A stretch of DNA of 64,000 bases from a virus, in the IMG/VR virus record IMGVR_UViG_3300049255_000083, positions 1 through 64,000 of that record; one strand, 5' to 3'. Made by a program: the position numbers and the translations under genes. The stretch's first letter is position 1; each line of letters opens with the position of its first letter. Shown here one piece after another: positions 46,105 to 64,000 of the stretch. Under the pieces are notes generated by a model. It searched no databases. It saw only the letters and a program-made list of their open reading frames with translations, and had not been told where the DNA came from.

Positions 46105-46443
46105 TCAGGTCCCGACTTTTTCGTCAGTCCCGTCCCACACGAACTCGCCGTCCTCGCCCACGGGGAAGTGCGTGCCGCACGCGCAGCAGAACGTGCCGTT
46201 GTAGAACTTGGGGTTGCGAGCGTAGGTCTCCGCGAGGGCCGTGCCCATGGTCGTCACGGAACCGCACTTGAGGTGGATGTACGACCGTCGCACCGGACGG
46301 ACGAAACCCTTGGCGCGCTCCTCGGCCGTGAGGACGAGGTAGTCGACCTGCTGGCCGTCGGGACGGAGTTTCGTGTGCTCCCCGTAGGGGGTGCCATGGA
46401 TGGTCTCGGCTTCCCCTTGCCCGGTGACGATCTTGCTGCTCAT
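46105..46443 (-). CDS. small zinc-binding phage protein
   Basis: 112 aa from MSSKIVTGQGEAETIH; its ATG overlaps the stop of the actin-like gene (ATGA). Metal ligands are probable at HLKCG (H58, C60) and CCACGTHF (C87, C88, C90, H93), in a YIHLKCGSVTTM...FCCACGTHFPV pattern found in many phage proteins of unknown function. It ends GEFVWDGTDEKVG. Coupling to the actin-like gene suggests co-function; no role is established. Confidence 0.6.
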   Translation of the reverse strand: MSSKIVTGQGEAETIHGTPYGEHTKLRPDGQQVDYLVLTAEERAKGFVRPVRRSYIHLKCGSVTTMGTALAETYARNPKFYNGTFCCACGTHFPVGEDGEFVWDGTDEKVGT

Positions 46444-47459
46444 CCGGCGTGCTCCTCCATCGCGAGGACGAGGAGACCTTCGGCCACGGCCGTCATCGGG
46501 TCCTTGGCCATGCGGATCTCGGAGATCTGGATGGGAAAGCCCTTCTTCTTCACCTGCTCGAACTCGTCCTTGAAGACGGCCTCGAACCCGATGGCGCGAG
46601 TCGTTCCGCCCGAGATGATGAACGGGATGGGCTCGGGGAGGCTGATGGAGTTCTGGACCTTGCGGAACTGCACCGCGATGTTGTCGAGGCAGTACCGAAT
46701 GAGGGCGCGGATGTAGAGCGCGATGGCCTCGGCCTCGCGGTCCCCGCCCGTGTGCGCGAGGTCCACGCCCTTCTCCTTGGTCGCGCACACGCGGGCGGCC
46801 GTGCTCCCGAGGGCCTTGGCCGCATGCTGGTCGATCCAGTCGCCTCCGCGGGCGAGCGAGAAGTCCATGCCCTTGACGGTCTGGAACGAGAGGGCGACGT
46901 TGCACATGCCCGAGCCGAACGACACGGCGAGGCCGGAGAAGTTCGTGTCGGCGCACTGCGAGTAGATGATCGCCATCGACTCGTTCATCGGGTGCGGCGT
47001 GTACCCGTGCTCGGAGATGATCTTGCGGAACACCTCCTGGTGGTAGATGACGTCCTGGTCGGGGTCGTCGATGGGGCTCGCCGGAACCGAGTAGAAGCAG
47101 TGCTCCTTTTCCACGGTCGGCTCTTGGAGGACGTGGAAGACAAGGAGGCTCAGGATCTGCTGGGCTTCCAGTTCGCCAGCGGAGATCACACCGCGCGAAA
47201 GCGGCCGGCGAACCTCGCGCTTGAAGAGGTTCGCCATGTTGAGGGCGCTATCGCCGAGGACGACGAGATTGCCGTCCTTCTCAACGTAGTTCACCTTCGA
47301 GAGCCGGAGCGTCTTCTTCGCCTCGAGGTCGAGGTCGATGAAGGCGTCACGGATTCGCGAGGTCTCGACGCTATCGCCCTTGAGGGTGCTACGCGCCGAA
47401 ACGATGTTCATGGTTCCGACGTCGAGTCCGACGCCGGGCTTGTACTTGGTGTCTCCCAT
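46440..47459 (-). CDS. actin-fold (MreB/ParM/Hsp70-type) ATPase
   Basis: 339 aa, the usual length for bacterial actins. Phosphate-1 loop is GLDVGTMNI (11-19); connect-1 is MNESMAIIYS (158-167); phosphate-2 loop is LAVSFGSGMCNVAL (177-190), where the usual Asp is Ser179; the adenosine motif is FIISGGTTRAIGFEAVF (280-296); and the last helix DPMTAVAEGLLVLA (320-333) matches the conserved xVAxG end. The family uses ATP to form filaments or act as a chaperone. The changed phosphate-2 residue could slow hydrolysis. It is encoded just downstream of a Dps-like protein and upstream of the zinc-binding protein, inside the tail cluster. Confidence 0.75.
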   Translation of the reverse strand: MGDTKYKPGVGLDVGTMNIVSARSTLKGDSVETSRIRDAFIDLDLEAKKTLRLSKVNYVEKDGNLVVLGDSALNMANLFKREVRRPLSRGVISAGELEAQQILSLLVFHVLQEPTVEKEHCFYSVPASPIDDPDQDVIYHQEVFRKIISEHGYTPHPMNESMAIIYSQCADTNFSGLAVSFGSGMCNVALSFQTVKGMDFSLARGGDWIDQHAAKALGSTAARVCATKEKGVDLAHTGGDREAEAIALYIRALIRYCLDNIAVQFRKVQNSISLPEPIPFIISGGTTRAIGFEAVFKDEFEQVKKKGFPIQISEIRMAKDPMTAVAEGLLVLAMEEHAG

Positions 47460-52156: not shown

Positions 52157-52666
52157 TCACTCGCCCGCGCCGGCCTCGGACAGGAGCTTCTCGATGTCCT
52201 TGGTCGTCTTGCCGAGGTCGGCCACCCAGTCCACGAAGAAGTCGAAGGCGCCCTTGAGGTACTCCCACGCCTTCACGAGCGCGCCCGAGAGGAAGTCGAG
52301 GAGACCCGCCGTGCGCGGGGCCACCGCCGGCGCCTGCTCGGGGCCGGGGACGTCCATGCCCTTGTCGAAGCGCTCGATGGCGTTCTTCAGGCTCTCCAGA
52401 ACGGCCTTTTTGCCGAGGTCCTTCTCGGCCACCATCATCATGAACTGGAACTCCTTCTCGAACTCGATGGCGTAGTTCGCGGCCTTGTCCTTCTTCTCAG
52501 CCGCCTTCGTCAGCGCTTCGAGCTGTTCCTTGGCCTTGGCGAGTTCCTTCTCGAACTTCGCCATGTCGCTCTTGGCCTCTTCGAGCCACTTCTGCTTCTG
52601 AGCGACGCCCTTCTGGCTCTTGGCCTTCGAGAGACCGTACTCGGGAAGTTGCTCAAAGTTGGTCAC
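52157..52666 (-). CDS. helical protein next to TnpB, start uncertain
   Basis: 169 aa from a GTG at 52666 (VTNFEQLPEYGLSK...). The longer frame from 52783 reads through TnpB DNA and is not used. A long Lys/Glu coiled coil (about 20-65; SDMAKFEKELAKAKEQLEAL) is followed by helices and a hydrophobic-aromatic region near 130-160 (VKAWEYLKGAFDFFVDWVAD). GTGA overlaps the TnpB stop. No good RBS lies before the GTG, so the TnpB insertion may have removed its natural start or made it depend on coupling. Function unknown. Confidence 0.5.
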   Translation of the reverse strand: MTNFEQLPEYGLSKAKSQKGVAQKQKWLEEAKSDMAKFEKELAKAKEQLEALTKAAEKKDKAANYAIEFEKEFQFMMMVAEKDLGKKAVLESLKNAIERFDKGMDVPGPEQAPAVAPRTAGLLDFLSGALVKAWEYLKGAFDFFVDWVADLGKTTKDIEKLLSEAGAGE

Positions 52667-54078
52667 TGGGCAACCACCTGATTTGAGGCTGTGCCGGACC
52701 GTAGAGGTACTCCGGTAGTAAGCCTCCGGCTCGACGGTACGAGCGCGTTCTGTACTGACTCTCCCAAGGAACTCGTTCGGCAATGTGCCCGAAATCGCTC
52801 TCTCAGCAGTGTCTTCACTGCGGACGGGTGATCATCAAGACCAACTTGTTTGTCCTCGGAACGTCCGAGCAAGTTGATCCCTCCCACCACGTCCGCGTGA
52901 CTTTTCCTGCCGCATGAGCGGCAGATGAACTTGATCCCTGACCTATTGCTCCTGGAGACGTAGCCGCAGCTAGGGCATGTCTGGCTTGAGTAGGCGGGGT
53001 TGACGACCTCGCAGGGGGCCTTCGTGGCAAGGCTGTGATGCAAAGCTCGATAGGCGAAACGCTTGGCCCCCCGGCAGCCGCGAAGGTCGAGATCCTCAAC
53101 GACGAACACGGCGCTGGGGTGAGCTTCCACGAGCTTGTTTGCACACTCACCGGCCACTGTCTTGACCAGCCCAGTGAGCTTGGCTTCAAGGTAGTCGAGC
53201 CTGGGCGAGTTTTCCTTGAATCCTTGTCGTTGTCGGTTCGCTCGAAGGTTGCGAACCTTTTGGTACAAGGTGTCGAACTTCGGTTTCAACGAGGCTCCGA
53301 GAAGCCTCCCTGACGACGTAGCGGCCATCACGTTGAGGCCAACGTCAATGCCGATCTTGGGGGCATCCAGATCACGCTCCGGCACTTCCCATTCCTTGCG
53401 CTCGACGACCTCGAAGCGCCATCGGCCTTGCTTGGTTTTGCGCGCCAAGATGCCTTTTGAGACATCGGCTACGTCTTTGCAGTAGGGACTCGCCGCCAAC
53501 GGAAGCTGAATCCTGGCCTTCCCCGCCTGTAGATGGGAGAACCCAAGCCACCACTGAGTGACCTTCGTGTCCGTTGTCATGCTGAGCACGGCGGTCATCT
53601 CGCTCATCCGCATCCCGCAACGGCTGGAGATGCTTGGCGCTCGCCCGACGATGACTTCGTCGAGCAACCATGACCAATAGAGATCGAGAGCTTCCTGGGT
53701 GACCTTGCCCCCTGGCTTGTCTACAAGGCGCTTACCGATGATATAGAGAGCTGAACGGGTTGCCTCGTCGATCTCCTGTGCTTTGAACTTCTGCTTGATG
53801 AGCGACTTGAGCTTTGCTGTGTACTTCGATGCTGCCCACCCCGAGACGATACTGAGGGCGTGATCTCGGACGTTCTTGACGATTTGGCTGGAGAGTGTCT
53901 CGCACCCAGGGAAGAACGCCTGCTTCTCCCTGAGCGACACAGTGAACCTGTGGGTCGCGAGCATCGCTTGGACGCAGACTTCAAGATAGGCTGCATACTC
54001 TGCTTGGAGAGCTTCCAAGGCAGCGATCTTCCCTAAATTTGCCTCTGTGTGCAGGTAGAGAAAGCGGGACTTCTTCAC
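52663..54078 (-). CDS. tnpB: TnpB-type RNA-guided nuclease, intact
   Basis: 471 aa from a GTG. RuvC residues are in place: D245 (IGIDVGLN), E328 (VFVVEDL) and D396 (SHADVVGGINLLG). The zinc finger is C368, C371, C386 and C389 (CPSCG...CRSCG). The N-terminal ~235 residues fit the WED/REC region (LHTEANLGKIAALEALQAEY). It should cut DNA matching a guide RNA made from its own 3' end. The last ~45 codons overlap a strongly foldable stretch. It is unlike the 19.4-20.6 kb TnpB in sequence and lies on the opposite strand. No TnpA is seen, so it may depend on others for transposition or act as a homing-type nuclease. Confidence 0.85.
   Translation of the reverse strand: MKKSRFLYLHTEANLGKIAALEALQAEYAAYLEVCVQAMLATHRFTVSLREKQAFFPGCETLSSQIVKNVRDHALSIVSGWAASKYTAKLKSLIKQKFKAQEIDEATRSALYIIGKRLVDKPGGKVTQEALDLYWSWLLDEVIVGRAPSISSRCGMRMSEMTAVLSMTTDTKVTQWWLGFSHLQAGKARIQLPLAASPYCKDVADVSKGILARKTKQGRWRFEVVERKEWEVPERDLDAPKIGIDVGLNVMAATSSGRLLGASLKPKFDTLYQKVRNLRANRQRQGFKENSPRLDYLEAKLTGLVKTVAGECANKLVEAHPSAVFVVEDLDLRGCRGAKRFAYRALHHSLATKAPCEVVNPAYSSQTCPSCGYVSRSNRSGIKFICRSCGRKSHADVVGGINLLGRSEDKQVGLDDHPSAVKTLLRERFRAHCRTSSLGESVQNALVPSSRRLTTGVPLRSGTASNQVVAQ
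52670..52765 (-). ncRNA. putative omega RNA at the 3' end of the minus-strand tnpB
   Basis: The stretch can form nested stems (ACCGT/ACGGT around GCCGG...CCGG) within and just past the last tnpB codons, as expected for reRNA scaffolds. The guide would continue into the 52157-52666 gene. Boundaries are estimates; the exact right end of the element is not known. Confidence 0.4.
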
Positions 54079-56941: not shown

Positions 56942-57328
56942 TCAGGTCTCGGTGGCGATGACTTGTCCGGCCGGGAACTTGAGCTGGTCGTTGACCGCGA
57001 CGTACCGCGACGACGAGAGGTTGGCGAAGTAGAGCAGGTTGCCGCCCGAGATCGCGTCGTAGACCCCGAAGGCCACGACCGTCCCCCAGTCGGCCGTGAT
57101 CGCGACGGGGAAGATGACGTCCGCCGAGTTCGAGCACTGACCGTTGCTGGGGGCCGTGAACGTGATGGCCACGCGCACGTAGCCGTTGCCCGCCACCTCG
57201 GTCCCTCCACCCGACGGCGTTGGAGCCACGGTGAAGAGGGCCAAGTACGTCTGGACCGGCGGCGTGTACGGCGTGTTCCTCAGGAAGAGGTTGAGCGCCG
57301 TGTTGTCGGCGTAGTAGCTCTTGGGCAT
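56942..57328 (-). CDS. tail/virion protein, paralogue of 58431-58823
   Basis: 128 aa. The pattern SYYADNTALNLFLRNTPYTP, then YLALFTVAP, GGGTEV-GNGYVRVAITF, WGTVVAFGVYDA and a final strand LKFPAGQVIA is a known phage beta-sandwich protein type (common in tail or decoration positions). The 58431-58823 protein has the same plan (ALLNAVLRNTAYSSPATVYV, GTEVVDSNYARQAVTF, GDTLSFAAAALSV), so the two arose by duplication. Promoter-like motif at 57341-57359. Confidence 0.6.
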   Translation of the reverse strand: MPKSYYADNTALNLFLRNTPYTPPVQTYLALFTVAPTPSGGGTEVAGNGYVRVAITFTAPSNGQCSNSADVIFPVAITADWGTVVAFGVYDAISGGNLLYFANLSSSRYVAVNDQLKFPAGQVIATET

Positions 57329-58430: not shown

Positions 58431-58823
58431 TCACTGCTCGGTGACGCTGAGGGCCGCAGCAGCGAAGCTGAGGGTGTCGCCCGCGTTCACGGTCTTGGAG
58501 ACCGCGAGCGAGCCGTAGTACAGCTCGTGGCCGATGCTCACGTCGTCGTAGATCGCCGCCTCGACGATCGTGTACGGACCCGACGCAGCACCCGCCCCGA
58601 AAAACGCGAGCGTGCCCGTGTTCGAGACCGTGCCGCCGCTCGGAGGGCCGAACGTCACCGCCTGGCGCGCGTAGTTCGAGTCCACGACCTCGGTGCCCGG
58701 CGTCGTGGGGGTCGAAGCCGTCGTGTTCAGGGCGACGTAGACCGTCGCGGGCGACGAGTACGCCGTGTTGCGAAGAACGGCGTTGAGCAGAGCCTGGTCG
58801 AGGTACTGGGACTTGGCAGCCAT
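58431..58823 (-). CDS. tail/virion protein, paralogue of 56942-57328
   Basis: 130 aa, same fold pattern as 56942-57328: KSQYLDQALLNAVLRNTAYS, YVALNTTAS, GTEVVDSNYARQAVTF, a SGPYTIVEAAIYDD centre and GDTLSFAAAALSV at the end. RBS AAGGAGAG before ATG 58823, and a promoter-like motif 46 bases upstream inside the zinc-ribbon gene. Possibly an abundant decoration or fibre protein. Confidence 0.6.
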   Translation of the reverse strand: MAAKSQYLDQALLNAVLRNTAYSSPATVYVALNTTASTPTTPGTEVVDSNYARQAVTFGPPSGGTVSNTGTLAFFGAGAASGPYTIVEAAIYDDVSIGHELYYGSLAVSKTVNAGDTLSFAAAALSVTEQ

Positions 58824-61413: not shown

Positions 61414-62064
61414 TCAGGTCATCGGGAACGTGTTGCTGTTCTGCTCGTTCGCGGTCACGTAGACCGTGTTGCCCGCGACCGGCGCCGTCGTGAACGCCGT
61501 CCCCGGGATCGAGATGGCCGTGGACGAGACCGATCCGCCTGCCGCGACGATCTGGGCCTGCGTGAGGGTCGCCGGGGCCGGGGCGGTGCCGCCCGTGCCC
61601 TGAGCGAACGTCACGCTCGTGATGTCGGGCGCGACGCTCGTGAACGTCGTCCCGGTGATGCTCATGGTGCTTCCGTGGACCGAGGCGGTGATGACCGGCG
61701 CCACGAGCTGGGAAGCCGAGATCCCCGACACGACCGTGAGGAGGGGGAAGGCCGAGGCCCCGGCCAGGGTCGAAACCGCCGGCGTGCTCGAGAGCTTCGA
61801 GATCTTGCCCTTCTTCCACGAGAGCGTGACCCGGTTGGTCTGCGCGAGGGTCACGTACCCGGCCACCACGCTCCCGTTGGCCGTCGTGTGCGAGTACGGG
61901 ACGTAGCAAGCCTGCTTGGGCTTGTTCGCATACCCGTCCCGCTCGTAAGCCTTGGGGTCCCCGAGGCTGCCGAGGCGGTGGACTTCCTTGTTCGGGAGGC
62001 CGTCGTCGATGTCGTCGACGACGATGGGGCCGGAGACGGTCTGGTTGTGAATGAGCCTCAGCAT
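61414..62064 (-). CDS. virion protein sharing an Ig-like domain with 59436-61025
   Basis: 216 aa. Residues about 1-110 (LRLIHNQTVSGPIVVDDIDD, GYVTLAQTNRVTLSWKKGKI) are a small beta domain. Residues about 115-216 (APVITASVHGSTMSITGTTF, SSTAISIPGTAFTTAPVAGN) match the second domain of the 59436-61025 protein, an IPT/TIG-like pattern. Head or tail decoration protein by context. Promoter-like motif at 62106-62122. Confidence 0.5.
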   Translation of the reverse strand: MLRLIHNQTVSGPIVVDDIDDGLPNKEVHRLGSLGDPKAYERDGYANKPKQACYVPYSHTTANGSVVAGYVTLAQTNRVTLSWKKGKISKLSSTPAVSTLAGASAFPLLTVVSGISASQLVAPVITASVHGSTMSITGTTFTSVAPDITSVTFAQGTGGTAPAPATLTQAQIVAAGGSVSSTAISIPGTAFTTAPVAGNTVYVTANEQNSNTFPMT

Positions 62065-62183: not shown

Positions 62184-62312
62184 TCAGGTCATGTTCGAGT
62201 AGGAGTCGCCCCCGGCCAGGTTGTATTGCTCGATGGCTTGGCCACGGAAGACGGCGTTCGTGTTCGGGCTGGCCGTGAAGGTGCTGGAGATGGTGCTGTG
62301 GTTGGCCTCCAT
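62184..62312 (-). CDS. small protein, unknown
   Basis: 42 aa from MEANHSTISSTFTASP, ending QYNLAGGDSYSNMT. It looks like real protein (NTNAVFRGQAIEQYNLAGG) but has no good RBS. It lies in the same frame as the lipoprotein upstream, separated by that gene's TGA and 12 sense codons, so it could be made by coupling, by stop readthrough, or not at all. Confidence 0.35.
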   Translation of the reverse strand: MEANHSTISSTFTASPNTNAVFRGQAIEQYNLAGGDSYSNMT

Positions 62313-62348
62313 CGCGGCCAGGGCAGAGGGGCGGTAAAACGGAGAAGG

Positions 62349-62705
62349 TCACTCACACACGCCGTAGCACTGCGACGGGCAGAACGTTCCTGCGGGCGGA
62401 GGGTTGCAACCGGGATGCTTGTAGCAAGTGCCCGTCGAGGGGTTCGTGACGAACACGCAGCTCTTCCCCGAGGGGCAATCGGAGTTCACCGTCGTGTTGC
62501 ACGCCACGTAGCATCGGTGGTTGTAGCAAAGGTCGCCGTCCACCGAGGCATCTTGCTGGCAGTCCGAGTCCGCGTTGCACCGCGAGGAGCGGACGGACTC
62601 CAGTTGATCGAGCTGCTGAGGGATCGGCGGCTCGACGTTGGTCGCGCACGCGAGTACGAGGGTCCCGAGCACACTGAGGGCGAGAATGGGTTTCGTCATG
62701 CCCAT
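62349..62705 (-). CDS. Cys-rich secreted lipoprotein
   Basis: 118 aa. An N-terminal signal peptide (MTKPILALSVLGTLVLAC) ends in a lipobox, LVLAC, with C20 as the lipidated residue. The mature part has 12 Cys (43, 49, 60, 65, 69, 77, 83, 94, 100, 109, 113, 117) in C-x-x-DSDC and DGDLCYNHRCYVAC patterns, as in small disulfide-knotted domains found in numbers in myxobacteria. It should be exported and anchored in the outer membrane or periplasm. A cell-surface lipoprotein inside a virion gene cluster suggests a superinfection-blocking or host-envelope role. The ATG choice (62705 or 62699) is uncertain and the RBS is poor. Confidence 0.75.
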   Translation of the reverse strand: MGMTKPILALSVLGTLVLACATNVEPPIPQQLDQLESVRSSRCNADSDCQQDASVDGDLCYNHRCYVACNTTVNSDCPSGKSCVFVTNPSTGTCYKHPGCNPPPAGTFCPSQCYGVCE

Positions 62706-62726: not shown

Positions 62727-63065
62727 TCAGAGCAGCGTGGAGAAGAACTGGGGGTCGACGATCGCCTTGTTGATCGTCTCCACCGACGTGTCCTGCCCGA
62801 ACACCTTGAGCTTGGCTTTGTACGGCGAGTGGGAGTTGTGGGTCTCGACCCACTTGACCATGCCCTCCGCCGTGCCGTGCGTGAACACGTGAATGCGGTC
62901 GGGTAGCTCGCAGTAGGCGATGGCCACCTCGACACTTGAATGTACGAGTGCTTCTTCACGAAGAGGCTCTCCGGTGGGTCCGAAGAGCGGCTGATCGTTC
63001 ACCATCTTCACGAGGTCGTCGTGGAAGTGGAAATGCCCGACTTCCTGCTTGTAGTAGGTCGCCAT
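62727..63065 (-). CDS. unknown small protein
   Basis: 112 aa. MATYYKQEVGHFHFHDDLVK is followed by an HSSVEVAIAYCELPDRIHVF strand, and TSVETINKAIVDPQFFSTLL at the end. Mixed alpha/beta, with a His-rich N-terminus (HFHFHDD). No family recognised. Short gaps to both neighbours; operon member. Confidence 0.45.
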   Translation of the reverse strand: MATYYKQEVGHFHFHDDLVKMVNDQPLFGPTGEPLREEALVHSSVEVAIAYCELPDRIHVFTHGTAEGMVKWVETHNSHSPYKAKLKVFGQDTSVETINKAIVDPQFFSTLL

Positions 63066-63074
63066 CGCGTTGCC

Positions 63075-63740
63075 TCAGAACTGGAGGTACTCGAAACCGG
63101 CGACGGCCGTCGACGCCGTTGTGCTGTTGGGCCTCTCCACGAGCCATAGAAGATCCGGTCCAGGGACCCCCATTGGGACCTGGAAGTCGTGATCGAAAGA
63201 GCTGCCCGCCAAATGGACGAGGGTCATCCCGATCTGGAGCTGCGGGTTGGTGGCCACGAGCGGGTTGCCGATGTGGTTCATGTTGGTCTGGCCCGCGACA
63301 TCGGTTGCCCCACACGTCATGCTGAGGACGTAGCACGTGACGCTGGAAGGAACGTAGTGGTGCGCCCAGAAAGTCATGTTGTCGCTCGCCGCGATGGACC
63401 CCCAAACCGAGCCCCCCACCCGCGGTTGCCGTCCACATCTGGATTGTGCCTGCGTTCCCGGCGCCCGTGCCGACCGACGCGACCACCATGTTCTCGAGGA
63501 ACGCGATAGTGGTGTTCACCGTGTTCACGGCCGTGGTGCCGCTGAGGGTCACAGTCTCGGAGGCCAGTAGAATGTTCGTGGCGTCCAGAAAGTTGACCGT
63601 CACGGTCCGTGCGCCCGTACCGGCCGAGGCGTCGCTTGCGCTGGTGGAGTTCACGCTGAGCTGGGCGTTGGCGCCCTGCGGAGTGTACGTCGTCGCTCGA
63701 ATCGCTTTGCCGTGATGGTGTAACCGTCGAGAGTTCCCAT
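63075..63740 (-). pseudogene. beta-rich virion protein with two apparent frameshifts
   Basis: A natural protein is recovered only by changing frame twice. It starts MGTLDGYTITAK from ATG 63740, needs a shift near 63704-63710 to continue AIRATTYTPQGANAQLS, then VTVNFLDATNILLASETVTL. It shifts again at the C6/G6 run (63412-63417) to reach VWGSIAASDNMTFW and end AGFEYLQF (stop 63075). About 220 aa if joined, with Ig-like strands and a VTCYVLSMTCGATDVAG segment. Causes could be real decay, programmed or slippage-based frame switching, or assembly errors at this end. Confidence 0.55.
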
Positions 63741-63743
63741 TGC

Positions 63744-64000
63744 TCACCACACCTGGTTCCACGGACCTTCGGCCCAGTGGATGCTGAAGGAGTGCGACGC
63801 GGAGGCGCTGTTCGCATCGACCCAGAGGACAAGGCCCTGGTTCGGCTGGAGCACGATGGATGAATCGTCCCCATCCTCGCCGTGGAATAGAAGCTCAACG
63901 GGGACGAACGATCCGGCGGCGGTCGTGAGTAGACCGGGAGTACCCACCCACAGGTCCGTCTGAAGCGTCGCAGTAGCCGGCGCCAAGTAGATCGCCAAGT
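63744..64000 (-). CDS. virion beta-domain protein, probably cut by window edge
   Basis: At least 84 aa, ending with the stop at 63744. The first codon in view could be a TTG start at 63998 but the gene may continue beyond the window. Beta-rich (TLQTDLWVGTPGLLTTAAGS, PVELLFHGEDGDDSSIVLQP, SHSFSIHWAEG), as in short phage structural proteins. Confidence 0.45.
   Translation of the reverse strand, partial: LAIYLAPATATLQTDLWVGTPGLLTTAAGSFVPVELLFHGEDGDDSSIVLQPNQGLVLWVDANSASASHSFSIHWAEGPWNQVW

Follow-up and report, generated by a model that had tools for sequence, protein, structure and literature searches.

Why would a virus encode a small, cysteine-rich lipoprotein among the genes of its tail fibres, where did that gene come from, and what does it say about the host? 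We addressed these questions for the gene P0002 (62349–62705, minus strand), which lies in a window of 64,000 bases, namely bases 1–64000 of a 79,227-base virus record (a fragment of ~79 kb).

The phage and its lipoprotein gene

Relatives of the record's baseplate protein were found in 26 IMG/VR contigs, the longest of 529 kb; best-segment identity is 57–80% in 25 of these and 39% in one. Among named phages, relatives occur in LR745208 (485 kb, 36%), Tunturi_5 (309 kb, 26.5%), Bacillus phage G, and Virus Rctr197k. These large relatives identify the record, by sequence comparison, as a piece of a jumbo myovirus. Nearly all of its called genes lie on the minus strand, and its gene order is common to five relatives (G002, G007, G009, G014, and G020) and partly to LR745208 and Tunturi_5. 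Two further minus-strand genes were observed in the window. The gene at 46440–47459 gives a full-length Pfam Volactin match (4.8e-75), a name under which the literature sampled mainly concerns Haloferax, and is kept at 55–74% identity in five relatives and LR745208. The gene at 52663–54078 encodes a TnpB/Cas12f-like protein (PF07282; PHROG transposase) with a 46% identical stretch in LR745208 and a 70% identical one in G002; the latter sits at a different place, so the gene looks mobile.

P0002 encodes a protein of 118 aa with a signal peptide (residues 1–19), the lipobox LVLAC with its cysteine at C20 (C18 should translation begin at the second ATG), and 12 mature cysteines, an even number. 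Translation of the minus strand confirmed the first-pass annotation, which had reported a signal peptide, LVLAC at residue 20, and 12 further cysteines here without naming the strand; the plus strand carries an antisense ORF. Specifically, the codons of the type II signal peptide and lipobox (residues 1–20; 62646–62705, minus strand), including the invariant cysteine (MGMTKPILALSVLGTLVLAC), were recognized from the translation by a rule-based test of our own, not SignalP. The cysteine module C-x2-DSDC-x10-C-x4-C-x3-C-x7-C-P-x-G-x2-C, defined by translation and the motif census below, spans residues 43–83 (62457–62579, minus strand). As to the motifs named earlier, the DG-x-LC-x-x-x-x-C spacing is present as DGDLC-YNHR-C, while 'C...DSDC' was imprecise and is in fact C-x2-DSDC (C43-NA-DSD-C49).

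The P0002 gene is intact and real and did not arise by chance. Cysteine accounts for 13 of its 118 residues, whereas the remaining called genes together have 161 in 25,507 residues (a binomial P of about 1e-12). Moreover, no ORF of at least 100 aa with a lipobox and at least 10 cysteines arose in 60 copies of the record simulated by a first-order Markov model, and the real record has one. Its codon-position GC (0.55/0.53/0.84) is similar to that of other genes, and its overall GC is 0.636 versus 0.641 for the record. No Shine-Dalgarno-like stretch precedes its start; several neighbour genes have one. Searches with the protein gave no match above cut-off and no catalytic domain in Pfam and NCBIfam, no PHROG match, no tblastn match (E 0.1) among 50,697 phage records, no relative in single-protein scans of viral_contigs and genome_contigs, nothing in a plasmid search, and nothing useful in a sequence search of the PDB. 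AlphaFold prediction of the mature protein without an alignment reached a mean pLDDT of 48.

Myxococcota affinity and the host question

Such lipoproteins had been called typical of myxobacteria rather than phages. We ran a taxon-blind DNA pattern for C-x2-D-x-D-C-x10-C-x4-C-x3-C over genome_contigs, which matched at least 117 stretches, 104 of those listed being in frame; removal of C/D-rich low complexity left 84 filtered matches among those listed. Of these listed matches, 47 lie in Myxococcota, 6 in Pseudomonadota, 5 in Planctomycetota, and 13 are unplaced. Myxococcota probably make up a small share of genome_contigs. Among the same listed matches, a lipobox stands upstream in 26 of the 47 from Myxococcota, 5 of the 24 from other named phyla, and 4 of the 13 unplaced. 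A longer motif that adds C-P-x-G-x-x-C retains 11 of the 84 matches listed, 8 of them with a lipobox upstream; all 11 come from Myxococcota, a figure that is not independent, as the motif was designed after P0002 and such matches were known.

In the search against Myxococcota that had been proposed, P0002 alone matched two of 377 genomes. One match, L164, is a chromosomal lipoprotein of 160 aa that is collinear with P0002 from the lipobox to the cysteine module at 29% identity (E 8e-10 in a single comparison, 3e-4 in the genome search). The other, L165, is a large repeat protein, not lipoprotein-like, and was rejected. A two-sequence profile of P0002 and L164 over four phyla (2/235, 1/249, 0/199, and 0/198 genomes) did not separate the phyla; L168, a match of this profile, has three stops inside and was discarded. 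P0002 had no match in a set of 11 genomes. Compared with the Cys-rich lipoproteins of Myxococcota (L164 and the C-x2-DGDCNPGNDGSG-x-IC group of L057, L066, L077, L103, L113, and L135), P0002 shares the lipobox and the Cys/Asp/Gly/Pro spacing, but it is shorter (118 aa versus 160 in L164 and open frames of 233–535 aa in the group), only about 30% identical, and phage-borne. The listed matches and L164 show that this sequence type, as judged by its motifs, is strongly biased to Myxococcota, and the myxobacterial half of the claim is supported. The words 'rather than phages' were too strong, since long proteins with C-x2-D-x-D-C are found on other viral contigs as well, although the part inspected showed no lipobox, and related jumbo phages carry several other lipoproteins.

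Five of these relatives (records of about 400 kb each) gave 15 lipobox calls, 10 of which were kept, including a GH5 lipoprotein of G007 discussed below; L196, L198, L240, L245, and L260 (63–86 aa) were set aside as membrane-like or doubtful. Lipoproteins located elsewhere than the fibre segment of P0002 include, in G002, a VanW-domain protein (L281:11794–12903) and a DTG-linker protein with a weak Lcl_C match (L283:16215–17348), and, in G009, a protein with a TGG-repeat linker and RCC1 repeats (L211:15108–16796, the same gene as L011:21103–22791). LR745208, a public record of a huge phage, encodes a 22-Cys lipoprotein with an acidic linker (L297:46462–47187) and one with a HELGH metalloprotease motif (L300:29790–30362). 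Tunturi_5 has three lipobox calls, each with at most 3 Cys; its gp251, annotated as a 'lipoprotein precursor' among fibre genes, has no lipobox cysteine and was left out of the count. Next to the baseplate genes of Tunturi_5, the annotation also lists two RCC1 proteins.

This giant soil phage probably infects a Gram-negative soil bacterium, and Myxococcota are, on these sequence comparisons, a plausible actual host. The phage baseplate gene occurs in 0 of 311 Myxococcota genomes and the G007 lipoprotein L227 in 0 of 178. Host prediction from tRNAs, also proposed, gave no clue, as the record has none. A host other than a myxobacterium, with the gene gained by horizontal transfer or its spacing derived from another phylum such as Acidobacteriota, is rather unlikely, and would be compatible with other readings of what the protein does. 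Such a host would fit the cultured phage Tunturi_5, which infects the acidobacterium Tunturiibacter and has the baseplate and a number of conserved genes in common with the present phage at 24–43% identity, and the lack of the baseplate gene in the 311 sampled Myxococcota genomes; the census, moreover, touched Acidobacteriota only by one out-of-frame match among those listed. It is opposed by the Myxococcota share of the listed motif matches (47/84 and 11/11), by the low cysteine number of the Tunturi_5 calls, and by the Cys-rich TGG/DTG-linker lipoproteins of the relatives, a linker style that we take to be myxobacterial. Thus, the myxobacterial-type host suggested in the first pass draws support from the census and L164, while the baseplate result and Tunturi_5 speak against it.

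The variable fibre segment and the origin of the gene

P0002 sits in a tail-fibre cluster, as expected from the earlier statement that it lies among virion genes. Comparison with relatives defines a hypervariable, presumably receptor-binding segment bordered on the left by conserved gene A (61414–62064, minus strand) and on the right by conserved gene B (record 76109–76738, outside the window). Two genes for Gp80-family fibre proteins (56942–57328, PF23140, 7.3e-40; 58431–58823, PF23140, 6.8e-32; both minus strand) stand immediately left of gene A in the present phage, and positions 63744–64000 on the minus strand hold the 3' end of a fibre gene (record 63744–68183) whose 1479-aa product matches GH16 (PF00722, 3.3e-12). 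A 112-aa ORF (62727–63065, minus strand), for which no relative was found, lies 21 bp upstream of the P0002 gene and was possibly acquired with it.

Gene A is present in 13 records, the present phage included, and three of the 13 segments (G008, G1058, and G014) are covered partly or split at record ends. The segment is empty or nearly so in three records (49 bp in G018, 49 bp in G026, and 316 bp in G021); the corresponding contigs L316, L315, and L314 represent naturally unoccupied sites of a hotspot for fibres and cargo. At least four of the 13 records hold a lipoprotein in the segment, namely the present phage, G007 with the GH5 protein (PF00150, 1.2e-38), G004 with a lipase adjoining gene A (Lipase_2, PF01674, 5e-9; 18 Cys), and G009 with a protein of 16 Cys and a GGT/TGG linker. 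All lipoprotein counts are lower bounds; our first scans overlooked the G007 GH5 protein and the G009 L215 protein. Other cargo comprises a Pfam-matched collagen-like fibre in G009, similar Gly-rich repeats recognized by eye in G012, G014, and G020, a patatin in G002 and G1058, and one glycosyltransferase each in G014 and G020. G008 encodes a GH18-like protein there, its PF00704 match (0.0033) falling short of the family cut-off. Patatin-like phospholipases were seen in fibre segments at L292:1749–2648 and L317:9394–10245 (Pfam) and L172:16850–17710 (by eye), and three lipobox calls in the fibre-related contigs L178 and L195.

Directly behind the P0002 gene lies a remnant of a GH18-like gene, its last ~46 codons (62184–62324, minus strand), which match the C-terminus of a full GH18-like copy of 321 aa (L310:7353–8315) with 61% identity in 46 aligned columns. 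The intact gene, of about 300–320 codons, is found in three related fibre clusters, L310 (G008), L171, and L172; it directly follows the homolog of 63075–63743 in L171 and L172, and one small gene stands between them in L310. The remnant is in the frame of P0002, with homology beginning about 8 codons past the P0002 stop. No convincing N-terminal piece was found in the present phage, even at E 50, and the P0002 gene and ORF 62727–63065 stand where the lost part would be. The stump directly behind P0002 and the intact copies in relatives show, at the level of sequence comparison, that the P0002 gene took the place of most of a GH18-like gene still complete in relatives. Additionally, the fibre-associated gene at 63075–63743 (minus strand), which has intact homologs in L172 and others, is split between two reading frames close to a run of G, which may reflect decay or sequencing error. 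Given this broken neighbour and the GH18-like stump, the present end of the fibre cluster may be decaying cargo.

No relative of P0002 was found in the 26 baseplate-related contigs or in the genomes compared for gene order; a G020 match (E 0.016) is antisense within a longer ORF and was rejected. The scar and the absence from all relatives examined support the earlier proposal of a recently picked-up host gene, and P0002 is probably a captured host-type gene. The same observations, together with the broken neighbour gene and the start without a Shine-Dalgarno-like stretch, would also suit a host gene caught by illegitimate recombination in a recombination-prone fibre segment, one with no phage function yet and due to be lost. 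We regard this as unlikely, because the frame is open and its codon-position bias retained, and because other lipoproteins occupy the same segment in three relatives. The other lipoproteins of the clade (GH5 in G007, Lipase_2 in G004, RCC1 and GGT/TGG proteins in G009, VanW and Lcl_C proteins in G002, and the 22-Cys protein of LR745208) have a lipobox like P0002 and mature domains unrelated to its own. The presence of three of them in its segment points to selection for cargo of this kind.

Possible roles during infection

Our leading, though still tentative, reading is that the phage captured P0002, an outer-membrane lipoprotein, and uses it to convert the cell surface or to exclude superinfecting phages, by a logic like that of T5 Llp, in a host that would most likely belong to Myxococcota. 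Outer-membrane sorting is read from residue +2 (Asp versus other), which is Ala in P0002. During infection, P0002 would be exported by Sec, lipidated at C20 by the host Lgt and LspA, stabilized by as many as six disulfides, and delivered to the outer membrane. There it would alter the cell surface; most likely, it would cover or block the receptor used by the phage's own fibres, and progeny and rival phages would thus be spared futile binding to the infected cell or its debris. Because of the lipobox, P0002 is expected in the host envelope and not in the virion, with which the disulfides agree.

The available part of PMC9586334 places the T5 Llp gene adjacent to and downstream of the gene for the receptor-binding pb5. 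P0002, like T5 Llp and T1-type Cor, is a small phage lipoprotein encoded beside receptor-binding genes, here fibre genes that are candidates for this role, the actual receptor binder being presumed. It differs from them in having 12 mature cysteines and in belonging to a jumbo phage; no sequence similarity was found (by PHROG and tblastn of phage records, not pairwise), and its envelope position and effect on a receptor are predictions.

A role in breaching or remodelling a thick exopolysaccharide or the outer membrane from within at lysis or entry, as might also be served by the GH5, lipase, patatin, and GH18-like cargo of the segment, and at the extreme as an o-spanin-like lysis protein, is distinctly unlikely. 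O-spanins are small lipoproteins, and the remaining cargo targets envelopes or glycans (GH5, lipase, patatin, GH16, GH18-like, and glycosyltransferases). However, neither a catalytic domain nor a Pfam match above cut-off was found in P0002, no i-spanin partner was recognized by eye among its neighbours, the lysozyme gene is about 36 kb away, and we know of no o-spanin with such a set of 12 cysteines. Very unlikely is a virion part, a disulfide-rich adhesive fibre tip with a mere lipobox-like signal peptide, which the neighbouring fibre genes and the long viral C-x2-D-x-D-C proteins might suggest; virions assemble in the cytoplasm and disulfides form in the periplasm, while the signal peptide and lipobox would route P0002 out of the cytoplasm.

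An extension of the surface-conversion reading, which we consider most improbable, is that P0002 acts as a shared good. In M. xanthus, according to the available part of PMC3325183, an outer-membrane type II signal sequence is sufficient for cell-to-cell lipoprotein transfer, which opens the idea that P0002 might, in a myxobacterial host, be passed by TraA/TraB exchange to uninfected kin and alter their receptor state before phage arrives. The altered neighbours would exclude rivals or be marked cells, and the jumbo clade would maintain, within its receptor-binding segment, a place for swapping such lipoproteins. As a predicted outer-membrane lipoprotein with a type II signal sequence, P0002 resembles the exchange cargo CglB and Tgl and the Cys-rich receptor TraA; the likeness is one of description, and TraAB in the phage host is assumed.

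Lipoproteins beside receptor-binding genes are already known in coliphages. In the literature as far as sampled, no work on lipoproteins of the present phage clade was found, titles and abstract starts held nothing on point that links jumbo or huge phages to Myxococcota or lipoproteins, and the word 'lipoprotein' is absent from the main texts, as available, of the Tunturi virus paper (PMC11924767) and the huge-phage paper (PMC7162821). Here, a jumbo clade has a variable slot that holds different lipoproteins and envelope enzymes. If confirmed, this slot would provide a host clue for jumbo phages and a set of candidate surface-conversion proteins, and would make it possible to examine whether phages take advantage of the outer-membrane sharing of myxobacteria.
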